Part shown: positions 19,104-22,947 of the stretch, in pieces | How the letters are laid out: each line of letters begins with the position of its first letter | Numbering within the stretch: the first letter of the stretch is position 1 | Position numbers and translations under genes: made by a program | Source: Campylobacterota bacterium | GTDB taxonomy: Bacteria; Campylobacterota; Campylobacteria; Campylobacterales; Sulfurovaceae | Length of the DNA stretch: 45,546 nucleotides | Reading direction: 5' to 3' | Assembly (NCBI GenBank): GCA_003252535.1 | Contig: QKDN01000075.1 | Coordinates: 1-45,546 of the forward strand | Notes under the pieces: generated by a model | What the model was told of the DNA's origin: nothing | Database searches by the model: none | What the model saw: the letters and a program-made list of their open reading frames with translations, nothing else

Positions 19104-19129
19104 AAAGCTCCATTTAAGTATGGAGCTTT
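19104..19129 (-). terminator. Terminator of the DUF4178/DUF350 operon
   Basis: A perfect 10-bp stem, AAAGCTCCAT / ATGGAGCTTT, with a 6-base loop lies 10 bp past the DUF350 stop. On the minus strand the stem ends in TTTT, as in an intrinsic terminator. Confidence 0.8.
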
Positions 19130-19139
19130 GTAAGTGTGG

Positions 19140-19355
19140 TCAGTGAATCGCAGCCGAGATGATCATACCGAGCGATGCAATGATGGCAGCGAGTACGATA
19201 GCGACTGCGATATTGCCATCTTCTACCACCTGTTTCCTGATAGAAAAAGGTGTGATCACCTCGATGATATAGACGACGGTCACGAAAATAACCGTACCTA
19301 CTATCGCATAGAGCAGTGTCGAGCCCAATTGTGTGAAGATCGTTGTTTCATCCAT
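19140..19355 (-). CDS. DUF350 membrane protein, half-size
   Basis: A 71-residue inner-membrane protein with two hydrophobic helices (about 11-32 and 47-69) joined by a charged loop holding VVEDGNIAVAIVLAA. It belongs to DUF350, which in E. coli YjfL is present as two tandem copies in about 130 residues; here only one copy exists, so a dimer may form the functional unit. The function of DUF350 is not established. In other bacteria it is found with DUF4178 proteins and polyamine genes (recalled, not checked). AGAGGAG precedes the ATG. It is the last gene of the four-gene minus-strand unit. Confidence 0.82.
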   Translation of the reverse strand: MDETTIFTQLGSTLLYAIVGTVIFVTVVYIIEVITPFSIRKQVVEDGNIAVAIVLAAIIASLGMIISAAIH

Positions 19356-19375
19356 TTTATTCTCCTCTGTTGAAT

Positions 19376-19561
19376 TTATTTTCCTGAGCGGAACCCGCCG
19401 CTGCTTGTACCGGTCCAGCTGCTTGAACTGCTCGAACGATAGGAACGGCTGACCGATGTCGTATCCTCCGAACTGATCCCCTGCAACCCGATCCCCTTGT
19501 AGGTCATAAAACCGCTGGCTATCGTCAAGGCTCCAAAGAGTATCAGGATCATTTTTGTCAT
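19376..19561 (-). CDS. 61-residue membrane peptide with Ser/Gly tail
   Basis: A small protein with one hydrophobic helix (about 3-20) followed by a segment rich in Ser, Arg and Thr: a run of six Ser, then WTGTSSGGFRSGK at the C-terminus. I know no family for it. The low-complexity tail with terminal GGF/GSG-type residues resembles small proteins (such as DUF4247) that I recall beside DUF4178 and DUF350 elsewhere, but the likeness is only compositional. Its ATG overlaps the stop of the DUF4178 membrane protein gene by 4 nt, strong evidence that it is a real gene and part of the same unit. Confidence 0.68.
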   Translation of the reverse strand: MTKMILILFGALTIASGFMTYKGIGLQGISSEDTTSVSRSYRSSSSSSWTGTSSGGFRSGK

Positions 19562-20913
19562 TCGTCTTCCTCTTTATAAGAAGTAAAATTATCGATCATA
19601 GGCTGTATGAAGATATAGAGGACGATGACAAAGACCACGGCACCTACACCGAGCCAGTAGACTGCGCCAAGCCCTCCGATCGACCAGACTGTATATTTTT
19701 TCCAGCTTCCTCCTCCTGGAGAACCCATGAAAAAGAGGTAGAAGAGCGTTGCAAGGGTAAGAAGGAACAGCGGAAGGATATAGTTGAGTCGCGCGTACTT
19801 CTCTTTGACTGTTACTGTAACGATACCGGAGGTGCCTGTCATATTGGCCTTGGCTAAAGAAACAGAGTAATTTCCCTGCGGGAGTTTGATGTAGACATTG
19901 ACGAGATTCGAGCCCTGTTTCCATGTCTTTTTGAAGTAGTAGCTCTCGCTGACCGCCAATGCCTTGTCGATATGGAACACTCTCTTCCCGTTCTGGTGGA
20001 GCGAGAGAGTGTAGTTGTTGAGTATTGCCGCACTCGGTGCCCTGAGGGCGATCTGTGTCACATAGGCATCCGAAGTGATGTTCATCTCCTGCGTGAAAGG
20101 ATGATCCGTACTTTTGTAGAATACGGTCTTATCCGTATAGTAGGAGCCTATCAGCGACAGCAGCAGAACAGCCAGGATCACTCCGAGCCCCTTGAGCAGC
20201 GGTGATGCCGGGGACTGGATGGCATCTTCGTCTATAAGCTTCTCCCGGATGCTTTTTGTGGGACTGACCTGTTTGCTCTTGTCGACGCCAAAGCTCTTAT
20301 AGACACTCTCATTGTCAAGCTTCTCATTGAGATAGACCTCGTATTCGCTGTTACTTCGTTCTATCGAGAGGCTGCGCCCCTGGACACCGTTGTAGTCCCA
20401 GCACTCTATCCGGTCATTGGCTTTGGCTACCCAGCTCATCTCCCCTTCGACGAATCCTACATAGCAGTAGTAGGACTCTTCTGCGGCAAGATAGTGTCCT
20501 TTGCGGTAGAAGAGGGTGCGTGGATAGTTCTTCTCCCTCCATTCCCTGAGCTCGAAATCCCTTACCCTCTTGCTGAAAGAGAGCCGGCCTTTTTCATAGA
20601 CGAGCCATCCGTAGCCGTAAAGGGGCGAATAGAGAAAGAACTCGGTCCACTCCTCGGGATCATCGGTGCGGTAGGTGATCATCCCGATGATGGTCCATTC
20701 GACCCCTTTGATCGTCCCTTTCATACCCAGTGTGAAGGGGACGTCGGGACGCTCTTTGGCGTTGAATTTGGCCACTACTTTGTAGTTGTCATTGAGGTCG
20801 AGGATGCTGTTGCAGTAGCTGCATGTGACGGTGCTGACCCGTCCCCCTCCGATCAGGCTGAGCGGTGCGGCACAGTTGGTACACTTGATCGAATATTTTT
20901 GTGTATCACTCAT
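19558..20913 (-). CDS. Zinc-ribbon DUF4178 membrane protein
   Basis: A 451-residue protein. Residues 8-36 form a zinc ribbon with Cys11-x2-Cys14 and Cys31-x2-Cys34. A DUF4178 domain follows (about 60-200, with GMKGTIKGVEWTIIGMITYR and a WTEFFLYSPLYGYGWL strand). One hydrophobic segment lies near 236-258, a beta-rich, probably extracytoplasmic domain at about 260-375, and two or three more membrane segments at about 380-440. The start at 20913 is chosen because its ATGA overlaps the upstream gene's stop; the frame from 20949 would run into that gene. Function is unknown; its architecture suggests a membrane sensor or scaffold with a cytosolic zinc-ribbon/DUF4178 part. Confidence 0.8.
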   Translation of the reverse strand: MSDTQKYSIKCTNCAAPLSLIGGGRVSTVTCSYCNSILDLNDNYKVVAKFNAKERPDVPFTLGMKGTIKGVEWTIIGMITYRTDDPEEWTEFFLYSPLYGYGWLVYEKGRLSFSKRVRDFELREWREKNYPRTLFYRKGHYLAAEESYYCYVGFVEGEMSWVAKANDRIECWDYNGVQGRSLSIERSNSEYEVYLNEKLDNESVYKSFGVDKSKQVSPTKSIREKLIDEDAIQSPASPLLKGLGVILAVLLLSLIGSYYTDKTVFYKSTDHPFTQEMNITSDAYVTQIALRAPSAAILNNYTLSLHQNGKRVFHIDKALAVSESYYFKKTWKQGSNLVNVYIKLPQGNYSVSLAKANMTGTSGIVTVTVKEKYARLNYILPLFLLTLATLFYLFFMGSPGGGSWKKYTVWSIGGLGAVYWLGVGAVVFVIVLYIFIQPMIDNFTSYKEEDE

Positions 20914-21548
20914 AGGTATGACCCTTTGATCTCGAAGGGATCGATCCATTCCCCTTCAAATGTACTGATGGTCCGCTCACCCTGTGGGCTTGTATAGAGT
21001 TCCAGTGTTCTGAGCTTTGCTTTTTTGCCGGAGAGATGCACATAGCCGTGTTTGTCCCCTTTGGCGACAATCCTGGGGAGTGAACCGATGAAGCCTACAC
21101 ACTCCCCTTCACCTGTTTCGGTGACGATCCACTCTTTGTCTACGAAGGCTCCTTGTTTGAGTCCTCCGAAGAGCTCCGGTGTCATTGTGCTTTCTGTCTC
21201 CACTTCGAGTACCATGTCCCCCTCGTCGACACTCAGCCAGAGTTCACTACCCGATTCATCCCTGAGCCACCACTCTTCCCAGAAGCCCCTGCCGTACGAG
21301 TAGCGTATCATGCCGACCGGAAGGTAGCTTTTGTTCCTGTAGCTGAAGGTGGAGCCGAGTTTGATCAGGGAGAGTTCCGGGGCGAGTACCGAGGAGTCCC
21401 CTGCGAGCCGTGCCGCTTCGTCTTCGAGGAAGATCGTCGATCCGCACGAGCTGCATTGCGCTATCTTGGTATGGACAAAAAAGAGCGGCAGAGCAGCACC
21501 GCACTGTGGACAATTGAGGCTTTTGTATGGGGACTCTATCGTTTTCAT
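20910..21548 (-). CDS. Zinc-ribbon DUF4178 soluble protein
   Basis: A 212-residue cytosolic protein. It begins with a zinc ribbon (Cys13-x2-Cys16, Cys32-x2-Cys35), followed by a DUF4178-type domain: KLGSTFSYRNKSYLPVGMIRY, then a Trp-rich FWEEWWLRD strand and an ELWLSVDEGDMVL segment. It is a soluble paralogue of the larger protein encoded next, and the two overlap by ATGA. No Shine-Dalgarno precedes its ATG, and a TACAAT box ends 7 bases upstream, so the transcript may be leaderless. Function is unknown. It is the first gene of the four-gene unit. Confidence 0.8.
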   Translation of the reverse strand: MKTIESPYKSLNCPQCGAALPLFFVHTKIAQCSSCGSTIFLEDEAARLAGDSSVLAPELSLIKLGSTFSYRNKSYLPVGMIRYSYGRGFWEEWWLRDESGSELWLSVDEGDMVLEVETESTMTPELFGGLKQGAFVDKEWIVTETGEGECVGFIGSLPRIVAKGDKHGYVHLSGKKAKLRTLELYTSPQGERTISTFEGEWIDPFEIKGSYL

Positions 21549-21554
21549 GGTTTT

Positions 21555-21585
21555 ATTGTAACATTATTTTTTTAAACACACTCAA
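21555..21585 (-). promoter_or_regulatory. Probable leaderless promoter of the DUF4178 unit
   Basis: On the minus strand TTGAGT (21585-21580) and TACAAT (21560-21555) are spaced by 19 bp. The seventh base after the -10 box is the A of the ATG at 21548, so the transcript would start at the start codon. No ribosome site is present. Confidence 0.45.
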
Positions 21586-22388
21586 TAGAAAAGGGCACTC
21601 GTATACCCTACCACCCGCGAAGTATCACCTGCATAGTCTGCGCTCGTACGGTAGTCCAGTACTTTCGACGAAAGCCCGGCTTTTTTGGCAGCGAGGATCA
21701 TCGCCCTGACACCTCTCATCCCGCAGGCTTCGCAGCCGCTGGCAGCGATGGCGGGATCGAGATGCTGTATTGCATCGATGCAACGCTTATCCTTCGCATT
21801 GGCAGTATTCTGGTCATAAAAATGACTCAGGTCGGTACTGATGATGATACCGTTTTCAGGGTCCCTGAGAAGTGTGGAAATGATCTCCGAGAGCTCTGAA
21901 GCATCCATATCGCTGTAGATGAGCTCGATCACTGAGGATTTTGGCAGGTAGTTCCTGACGAAAGGCATCTGTACCTCCGTAGAGTGTTCCCTGGAGTGTG
22001 CTTCCGGGAGGAAACCGATAGGATGCTTTTTGGCCAGCTCTATCAGATAGCCGGTGTCGATGGGTAGATTGCCGCAGGGGGTCTCATACTCTTCGAAGTA
22101 ACTGCCGCTGACCCCGGCAAAAGCATAGTGATGGCTCGGACCTATTACGATCACTCTTCTGATACGGGTATTCTTCGCCAGGAGATTGTATGCTACCGAG
22201 GCGGTGAAACCGCTGTAGACGTACCCGGCATGGGGGACTATGATGGCATTCGTACCAAGCTTGAGATATTCGCTGAAAGCCTGTGAGCTTTTGAGCGCCT
22301 CGTCGAATCTGGCGAAGTATGCGCTCACCGCACTGCATTCTGCCGGGTAAAAGCTCCCTGCAACCGCTGCTTTTCTTCTCTCCTGCAT
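21582..22388 (-). CDS. amrB: MEMO-family protein, AmmeMemoRadiSam system protein B
   Basis: A 268-residue MEMO-family protein. The family belongs to the fold of class III non-haem iron dioxygenases and binds metal through His and Cys residues. Conserved elements seen here are HAGYVYSGFTA (His53), GPSHHY (His87, His88), STDLSHFYD near 187 and a Cys-rich GCEACGMRGV segment. The start at 22388 is chosen because AAAGGAG precedes it and the MQERRKAAVAGSFYP start fits the family; the frame upstream to 22610 overlaps amrA. In many prokaryotes MEMO, AMMECR1 and a radical SAM enzyme co-occur; the radical SAM partner is not in this window. The biochemical role is unresolved. Confidence 0.93.
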   Translation of the reverse strand: MQERRKAAVAGSFYPAECSAVSAYFARFDEALKSSQAFSEYLKLGTNAIIVPHAGYVYSGFTASVAYNLLAKNTRIRRVIVIGPSHHYAFAGVSGSYFEEYETPCGNLPIDTGYLIELAKKHPIGFLPEAHSREHSTEVQMPFVRNYLPKSSVIELIYSDMDASELSEIISTLLRDPENGIIISTDLSHFYDQNTANAKDKRCIDAIQHLDPAIAASGCEACGMRGVRAMILAAKKAGLSSKVLDYRTSADYAGDTSRVVGYTSALFY

Positions 22389-22398
22389 TGAGGCTCCT

Positions 22399-22947
22399 TT
22401 ATCTGTATTTGGTGACCTGGTAGATTTCGATATCAGGGTGTTTACCCAGGCACGATTGTCTGAGTCCGGCTTTCTGGCACAGTGAGGCGAAGAAGATATC
22501 AAAATTCGGCAGGTCTTCCCATACCTGCGGCAGATAGGTGGCACGGTGGCCGTGAAGCTTGAGTACCACACCGTCGATCCCCGGGCGTATCTTCGATCGG
22601 AGCTCATCAAGGGTACCGTAGCTGACAGGAGTGGGCGGGGTAAGGATAGAAACTTCGATATGGGTATAATCGAACTCTTCTGGAGCGAGAGGGTGGAAAC
22701 GCGGATCTCTCATAGCTGCGGAGCGGGCATTGGCGATGATATCCTTGTAGAGTGGCTGGTAGGCCTCAAGGGTGCCGATACAGCCACGCAGATCGTCATT
22801 GGCCCCCTGGGTCAGTGTGACGAATGCTGCACCGTTCTCCTTGAGCGCAGGATAATCATGCAGGGCTTTGTCGAGGTCGAAATCACTCTCTTTGCCAAGG
22901 GTGATGGCGATGGCCGCTTTGGCCAGGGCAAGGACTATCTCTTTCAT
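22399..22947 (-). CDS. amrA: AMMECR1-domain protein, AmmeMemoRadiSam system protein A
   Basis: A 182-residue soluble protein of the AMMECR1 family, the bacterial relative of a human gene linked to Alport-type syndrome. The family signature LRGCIGTL is at 53-60, and DPRFHPLAPEEF with IEVSILTPP follows around 80-105. No reaction is established. AAGGAG precedes the ATG. It lies 10 bp upstream of amrB and 14 bp after the COG3400 gene, so these three should be co-transcribed. Confidence 0.93.
   Translation of the reverse strand: MKEIVLALAKAAIAITLGKESDFDLDKALHDYPALKENGAAFVTLTQGANDDLRGCIGTLEAYQPLYKDIIANARSAAMRDPRFHPLAPEEFDYTHIEVSILTPPTPVSYGTLDELRSKIRPGIDGVVLKLHGHRATYLPQVWEDLPNFDIFFASLCQKAGLRQSCLGKHPDIEIYQVTKYR

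Follow-up and report, generated by a model that had tools for sequence, protein, structure and literature searches.

The four-gene unit and its surroundings

The locus analysed here raises the question of whether four closely packed genes, which encode two DUF4178 proteins, a small peptide and a short DUF350 protein, form a membrane system of their own or act together with other genes. A preliminary description of the window (the whole 45,546-nt stretch of DNA under analysis) had proposed the former. The four minus-strand reading frames it had listed were all found in place (Table 1), joined by ATGA overlaps of 4 nt between DUF4178sol and DUF4178tm (20913-20910) and between DUF4178tm and the 61-aa peptide (19561-19558), and by a gap of 20 bp between the peptide and DUF350. 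These are not chance ORFs, as they are conserved across 26 genomes of the family and in several phyla.

Table 1. Features of the four-gene unit, in coordinates of the window.
Feature	Position	Strand	Evidence
DUF4178sol: soluble DUF4178 protein, 212 aa, N-terminal zinc ribbon (four Cys)	20910..21548	-	Pfam DUF4178, 5e-12
DUF4178tm: membrane DUF4178 protein, 451 aa, zinc ribbon and DUF4178 domain	19558..20913	-	Pfam, 7e-17
61-aa single-TM peptide, Ser/Gly-rich tail, end ...GGFRSGK; candidate modification substrate	19376..19561	-	
C-terminal Lys codon of the 61-aa peptide	19379..19381	-	Lys invariant among orthologs
DUF350 protein of half size, 71 aa with 2 TM; corresponds to one repeat in the Pfam model	19140..19355	-	Pfam DUF350, 1.6e-12
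Terminator-like hairpin 3' of DUF350	19104..19129	-	-13.5 kcal/mol; z = -6.2 vs shuffles

One promoter and one terminator had also been claimed. A terminator-like hairpin, well above chance but with a short T run, does follow DUF350; the promoter was not supported, as no sigma-70-like site was seen in 21450-21800, ahead of the unit. The genes of AMMECR1 and MEMO (21582-22947), which are proteins A and B of the AmmeMemoRadiSam system, precede the unit on its own strand at a distance of 33 bp, and co-transcription of the unit with them is therefore possible. A conserved functional link to these two genes was rejected, the upstream neighbours being different in every relative. Scans for Rfam families and tRNA genes found nothing in the window, and PHROGs gave no real match that would point to a phage origin.

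Both DUF4178 proteins, one soluble and one membrane-bound, were confirmed by their Pfam matches, and the four cysteines of their zinc ribbons are invariant in 36 homologs of DUF4178sol and 40 of DUF4178tm. Along DUF4178tm, a TM segment (238-258) is followed by a beta-sandwich ectodomain (262-373), two more TM segments (376-396 and 414-447) and an acidic C-terminus; the last 16 residues usually are acidic, with 3.5 D/E per sequence. In a fold search with its AlphaFold model (pLDDT 84.8) the ectodomain resembled PPC/GOLD domains, while the search with the whole protein turned up no convincing match for the fold of its DUF4178 domain, the useful matches being those of the ectodomain. The protein is predicted from the model to consist of a cytosolic domain, a TM segment, a PPC/GOLD-like ectodomain and two further TM segments. 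A PDB sequence search with DUF4178sol matched only chance zinc ribbons and was disregarded. The DUF350 protein is indeed half-size, as had been described; its match spans only positions 2-65 of the 133 in the profile, and a form of 65-75 aa is found in nearly all homologous operons. Proteins of ~300 aa with at least two DUF350 matches were seen in one other family of the order (G211, G223, G235 and G199), away from any fused SpdSyn.

The unit is accompanied by a fused aminopropyltransferase

The distribution of DUF4178 was compared in 150 family genomes with that of SpdSyn, a fusion of a 7-TM domain and an aminopropyltransferase (PRK03612). Each was found in 27 genomes, 26 of which had both; one genome had DUF4178 alone, one SpdSyn alone and 122 neither (Fisher p 8e-27, uncorrected for relatedness). 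Both single-member genomes are 74% complete. Relatives keeping single members, named in the preliminary description as grounds for rejecting the unit, were thus mostly not seen, and its proposal of a conserved, co-inherited membrane unit is borne out by a nearly perfect co-occurrence.

Two other claims of that description did not survive. Polyamine-type genes, said to be absent, are present in the window's own genome, where SpdSyn and the decarboxylase paralog NspC2 (identities of 66% and 43%, respectively) occupy another contig (C14:26095-28654); this SpdSyn scores 645.7 bits, above the curated PRK03612/NF002956 cut-off of 472. Nor does the four-gene system stand alone. In many relatives a 506-aa protein matching PRK03612 follows DUF350 at a distance of 0 to -1 bp, and after it comes a decarboxylase of ~355 aa which is most like NspC and falls under the NspC cut-off. 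Three layouts were observed: all genes together; the DUF4178 genes and peptide in one group with DUF350, SpdSyn and NspC2 in another; and that of the window, four genes in one place and SpdSyn with NspC2 in another. Since SpdSyn co-occurs with the unit, is present on C14 and shares its operon in relatives, the four-gene unit is, as judged from gene content and order, one half of a split, conserved envelope system. A second explanation, involving a soluble SpeE-type enzyme, was set aside; outside the family, the order has only soluble SpeE-like matches and no fused form. In the window's genome a 677-aa leucine-rich-repeat-like protein (L118:9681-11714) ends 13 bp ahead of SpdSyn; it was not found beside SpdSyn in the relatives examined.

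A wider genome scan for SpdSyn yielded 80 loci from Campylobacterota, Thiotrichales, Rhodobacterales and other Alphaproteobacteria, Riflebacteria-like bacteria and Chloroflexota. The order DUF4178sol-DUF4178tm-peptide-DUF350-SpdSyn is kept in most of them, and was present in Campylobacterota, Gamma- and Alphaproteobacteria and Riflebacteria, with variants of the operon in Chloroflexota, Gemmatimonadota and Betaproteobacteria. All eight genomes tested in which SpdSyn has no adjoining DUF4178 carry DUF4178 elsewhere; of five Chloroflexota tested for it four were positive, the genome of L198 being negative. In Novosphingobium, SpdSyn and speD are separated by the gene of an FAD-dependent oxidoreductase (L257:7442-9058), in an operon that starts with an SPFH protein. 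By eye, DUF350-SpdSyn was also seen in some Thiotrichales (L159, L160, L163) after genes that include one for a DsrC/TusE-like protein with the end RKGGY, in place of DUF4178.

The small peptide ends in lysine

The preliminary description had treated the 61-aa peptide as filler. The data indicate otherwise: in 58/58 loci DUF4178tm is followed by a single-TM peptide of 48-76 aa, and in 58/58 its last residue is lysine, within the dipeptides GK (27), VK (22) or IK (9). In the family loci the peptide ends in GK in 26/26; these partly overlap in genomes with the set of 58, and both counts concern sequences related by descent and are not independent events. For comparison, a C-terminal lysine is found in 16% of the larger ORFs of the family loci. 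The tail ahead of the lysine is variable, around S-(V/I)-R-x-G-S-x-G-G. The lysine also ends the peptides of Ensifer, Novosphingobium, Burkholderia, Gemmatirosa and Chloroflexota, with tails such as ...GPESGK (L260), ...RFRHGK (L259), ...YGSHK (L258), ...GPSHK (L257), ...GGSGGK (L266) and ...RFGGK (L267). In an Alteromonas operon of the PspA type (L256) it is a 510-aa lipoprotein that ends in ...RGPSSGK, and DUF4178-TM itself carries the tail as a direct fusion in Beggiatoa (L177) and Chloroflexota (L268/L271). In a single exception, G385, SpdSyn and the two DUF4178 genes are present and no Lys-tail peptide is recognisable; G415 was left out of the tally, as its contig ends there. Judged from these alignments, the terminal lysine is almost always present, in at least six phyla and on non-orthologous partners as well, a spread over phyla and partner types which descent alone would hardly produce. 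The codon of this lysine is AAA in 54/58 loci (L132-L211), many of whose hosts are probably GC-rich Alphaproteobacteria; the bias may be an ordinary last-codon bias or a signal at the nucleotide level.

Because of its near-universal terminal lysine, the 61-aa peptide looks like the most informative part of the unit, and it is a good candidate for what SpdSyn modifies. The lysine could instead serve binding or protection from proteases: it might, for instance, pair with the acidic end of DUF4178tm or keep periplasmic proteases off the tail, with SpdSyn making or exporting an ordinary polyamine. The usually acidic end of DUF4178tm and the general frequency of lysine as the last codon agree with such a role. 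It is unusual, however, for charge pairing to depend so strictly on the final residue, in several phyla and with several types of partner, and the fused SpdSyn tested by Li and colleagues in 2019 reportedly had no spermidine synthase activity. We regard a mere binding or stability element as improbable.

Predicted sidedness of the aminopropyltransferase

The catalytic motifs DLPDP and GGGDG of SpdSyn are invariant, and the aminopropyltransferase fold appears in full in its predicted structure. In 39 SpdSyn sequences lysine and arginine alternate between loops, with averages of 1.6 in the N-terminus, 0.0 in L1-2, 2.0 in L2-3, 0.05 in L3-4, 2.8 in L4-5, 0.05 in L5-6 and 2.5 in L6-7. Based on this positive-inside pattern, the protein is predicted to have its N-terminus inside, seven TM segments and its catalytic domain on the periplasmic side. 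The Lys tails are probably outside too, as suggested by the lipoprotein signal of L256 and by the topology of the DUF4178-TM-tail fusions.

SpdSyn shares with the MprF-type lipid aminoacyl transferases/flippases a layout in which a transferase is joined to a polytopic domain and would add to the positive charge of the envelope; the folds are unrelated, and the two differ in the chemistry of donor and acceptor. SpdSyn might accordingly be imagined as MprF-like, acting on a membrane lipid or an envelope glycan with the Lys-tail protein as an accessory subunit only. The fusion of a TM domain to the transferase is in line with this, as are the link of related operons to PspA and envelope stress (PMC11237479) and the presence of PspA in L267. 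It leaves unexplained why a near-invariant C-terminal lysine should be found on non-orthologous proteins, and we consider a lipid or glycan acceptor unlikely.

A decarboxylase paralog in the place of AdoMetDC

The usual source of the aminopropyl donor is AdoMet decarboxylase (AdoMetDC). It was found in 44 of the 46 non-Campylobacterota genomes that carry the system, in some of whose loci it lies inside the annotated operon; in 9/53 non-Campylobacterota loci it abuts SpdSyn, as recognised by a class-1b motif. In the family, a search with PF02675 was negative in all 150 genomes, with working controls; PF01536 was negative in 27 of 27, in a search that gave no control match either.

NspC2, a paralog of carboxynorspermidine decarboxylase, is found beside or near SpdSyn in 20/27 Campylobacterota loci and in 0/53 others. 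It forms its own clade (100/100), apart from the housekeeping NspC and the solved CANSDCs. The fold family and the catalytic residues (PLP-Lys, Cys349, Glu303 and Asp308) are shared with NspC (3n29, 36gy; TIGR01047), whereas conserved residues of the distal pocket and the C-terminal tail are lost or changed. The NspC2 proteins of two relatives score 298.4 and 307.5 bits, below the TIGR01047 cut-off of 409, and that of the window's genome groups with them. By its position, NspC2 takes the gene slot of AdoMetDC in the Campylobacterota family, and its functional replacement of AdoMetDC is the best model that these comparisons suggest. Decarboxylation of AdoMet by NspC2 would be a chemically short step, because in AdoMet as in carboxyspermidine a cation bears a 3-amino-3-carboxypropyl group; to our knowledge, all known AdoMet decarboxylases use pyruvoyl. 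The proposed replacement is weakened by the seven of 27 Campylobacterota loci with no NspC2 beside SpdSyn. NspC2 is also absent from genomes close to completeness, G010 and G029 among them, in which its work would fall to the housekeeping NspC.

The absence of AdoMetDC and the position of NspC2 beside SpdSyn would also fit an additional scenario, in which AdoMet itself is the donor: SpdSyn would move its 3-amino-3-carboxypropyl group, the product would be decarboxylated by NspC2 or NspC, and decarboxylated AdoMet would play no part in the family. The product would bear the head group of carboxyspermidine, and the sufficiency of the housekeeping NspC after loss of NspC2 would be accounted for, the specificity of CASDC being reported as relaxed (PMC11999265). 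Against this, a periplasmic product could not meet a cytosolic NspC2, and no pocket residue sets these SpdSyn apart from those of genomes with AdoMetDC: of 16 specificity-determining sites between AdoMetDC-lacking and AdoMetDC-having clades, 12 fall within the membrane domain or ahead of it, and none of the remaining four was placed in the catalytic pocket. The comparison did not favour this scenario; it gives no pointer to the acceptor and no support for a different donor. Transfer of the carboxylated group is, in our estimation, distinctly unlikely.

A model for the system

Our preferred reading is that SpdSyn aminopropylates the C-terminal lysine of the membrane-anchored peptide. The four genes would supply the sensor, anchor and substrate, and 7TM-SpdSyn and NspC2 the enzymes. 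Decarboxylated AdoMet would be formed by a cytosolic decarboxylase, AdoMetDC in other phyla and here the NspC-like PLP enzyme NspC2, and would be carried across the membrane by the 7-TM part of SpdSyn, perhaps together with DUF350. The periplasmic domain of SpdSyn would then transfer aminopropyl groups onto the lysine, whose (CH2)4-NH2 arm resembles putrescine, and aminopropyl-lysine would make the envelope more positively charged. DUF350 and the two zinc-ribbon DUF4178 proteins may scaffold or control the transfer. The need for donor export, which follows from a periplasmic SpdSyn, counts against this model, and as a whole we hold it tentatively, with belief and doubt nearly in balance and doubt slightly ahead. 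The broader proposition, of a widespread post-translational modification in which a membrane-fused enzyme aminopropylates, on the extracytoplasmic side, an obligatory C-terminal lysine of small membrane peptides or lipoproteins, together with a PLP-dependent AdoMetDC derived from carboxynorspermidine decarboxylase in Sulfurovum relatives, is a speculative one that we consider fairly unlikely.

Relation to known systems and significance

An AdoMetDC found with an MFS-SpdSyn fusion was reportedly assigned a 'polyamine-independent role' by Li and colleagues. The fused type of aminopropyltransferase is common to that system and ours, and the two differ in that AdoMetDC is missing throughout the sampled family, an NspC-like decarboxylase being in its place. 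The system had been presented in the preliminary description as undescribed; the operon type is in fact already known (Ravi et al. 2024, PMC11237479; Li 2019). The former source reports a polyamine operon linked to PspA/CesT, with 7TM-SpdSyn, an 8TM DUF350, the lipoprotein Ctha_1186 and DUF4178. Here, too, DUF4178 is present, and 7TM-SpdSyn is found in the same genome, unlinked on C14 and linked in relatives; the Alteromonas example (L256), which is on a plasmid, has a lipoprotein with an ...SSGK end. In contrast to that operon, the window has two DUF4178 proteins, a half-size DUF350 of 71 aa and a 61-aa TM peptide in place of the lipoprotein, with only the GK-type end in common; its enzyme genes are unlinked, AdoMet decarboxylase is missing, and no ORF of the PspA-CesT dyad was seen beside the four-gene unit. 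A literature search with most subscription journals outside its reach gave no mention of the Lys tail, the split layout or the NspC2 swap, and one for aminopropylation combined with a C-terminal lysine found none. These three features appear to be what is new beside the known class of operon.

Many bacteria have AdoMetDC and a membrane-fused SpdSyn, and the small Lys-ended protein of the operon offers a concrete, testable candidate acceptor. Should the predicted topology hold, there would be an extracytoplasmic transfer of the polyamine type, which would bear on both the charge of the envelope and envelope stress. The Sulfurovum family represents a natural replacement experiment, in which AdoMetDC is gone and an NspC paralog is found in its slot.
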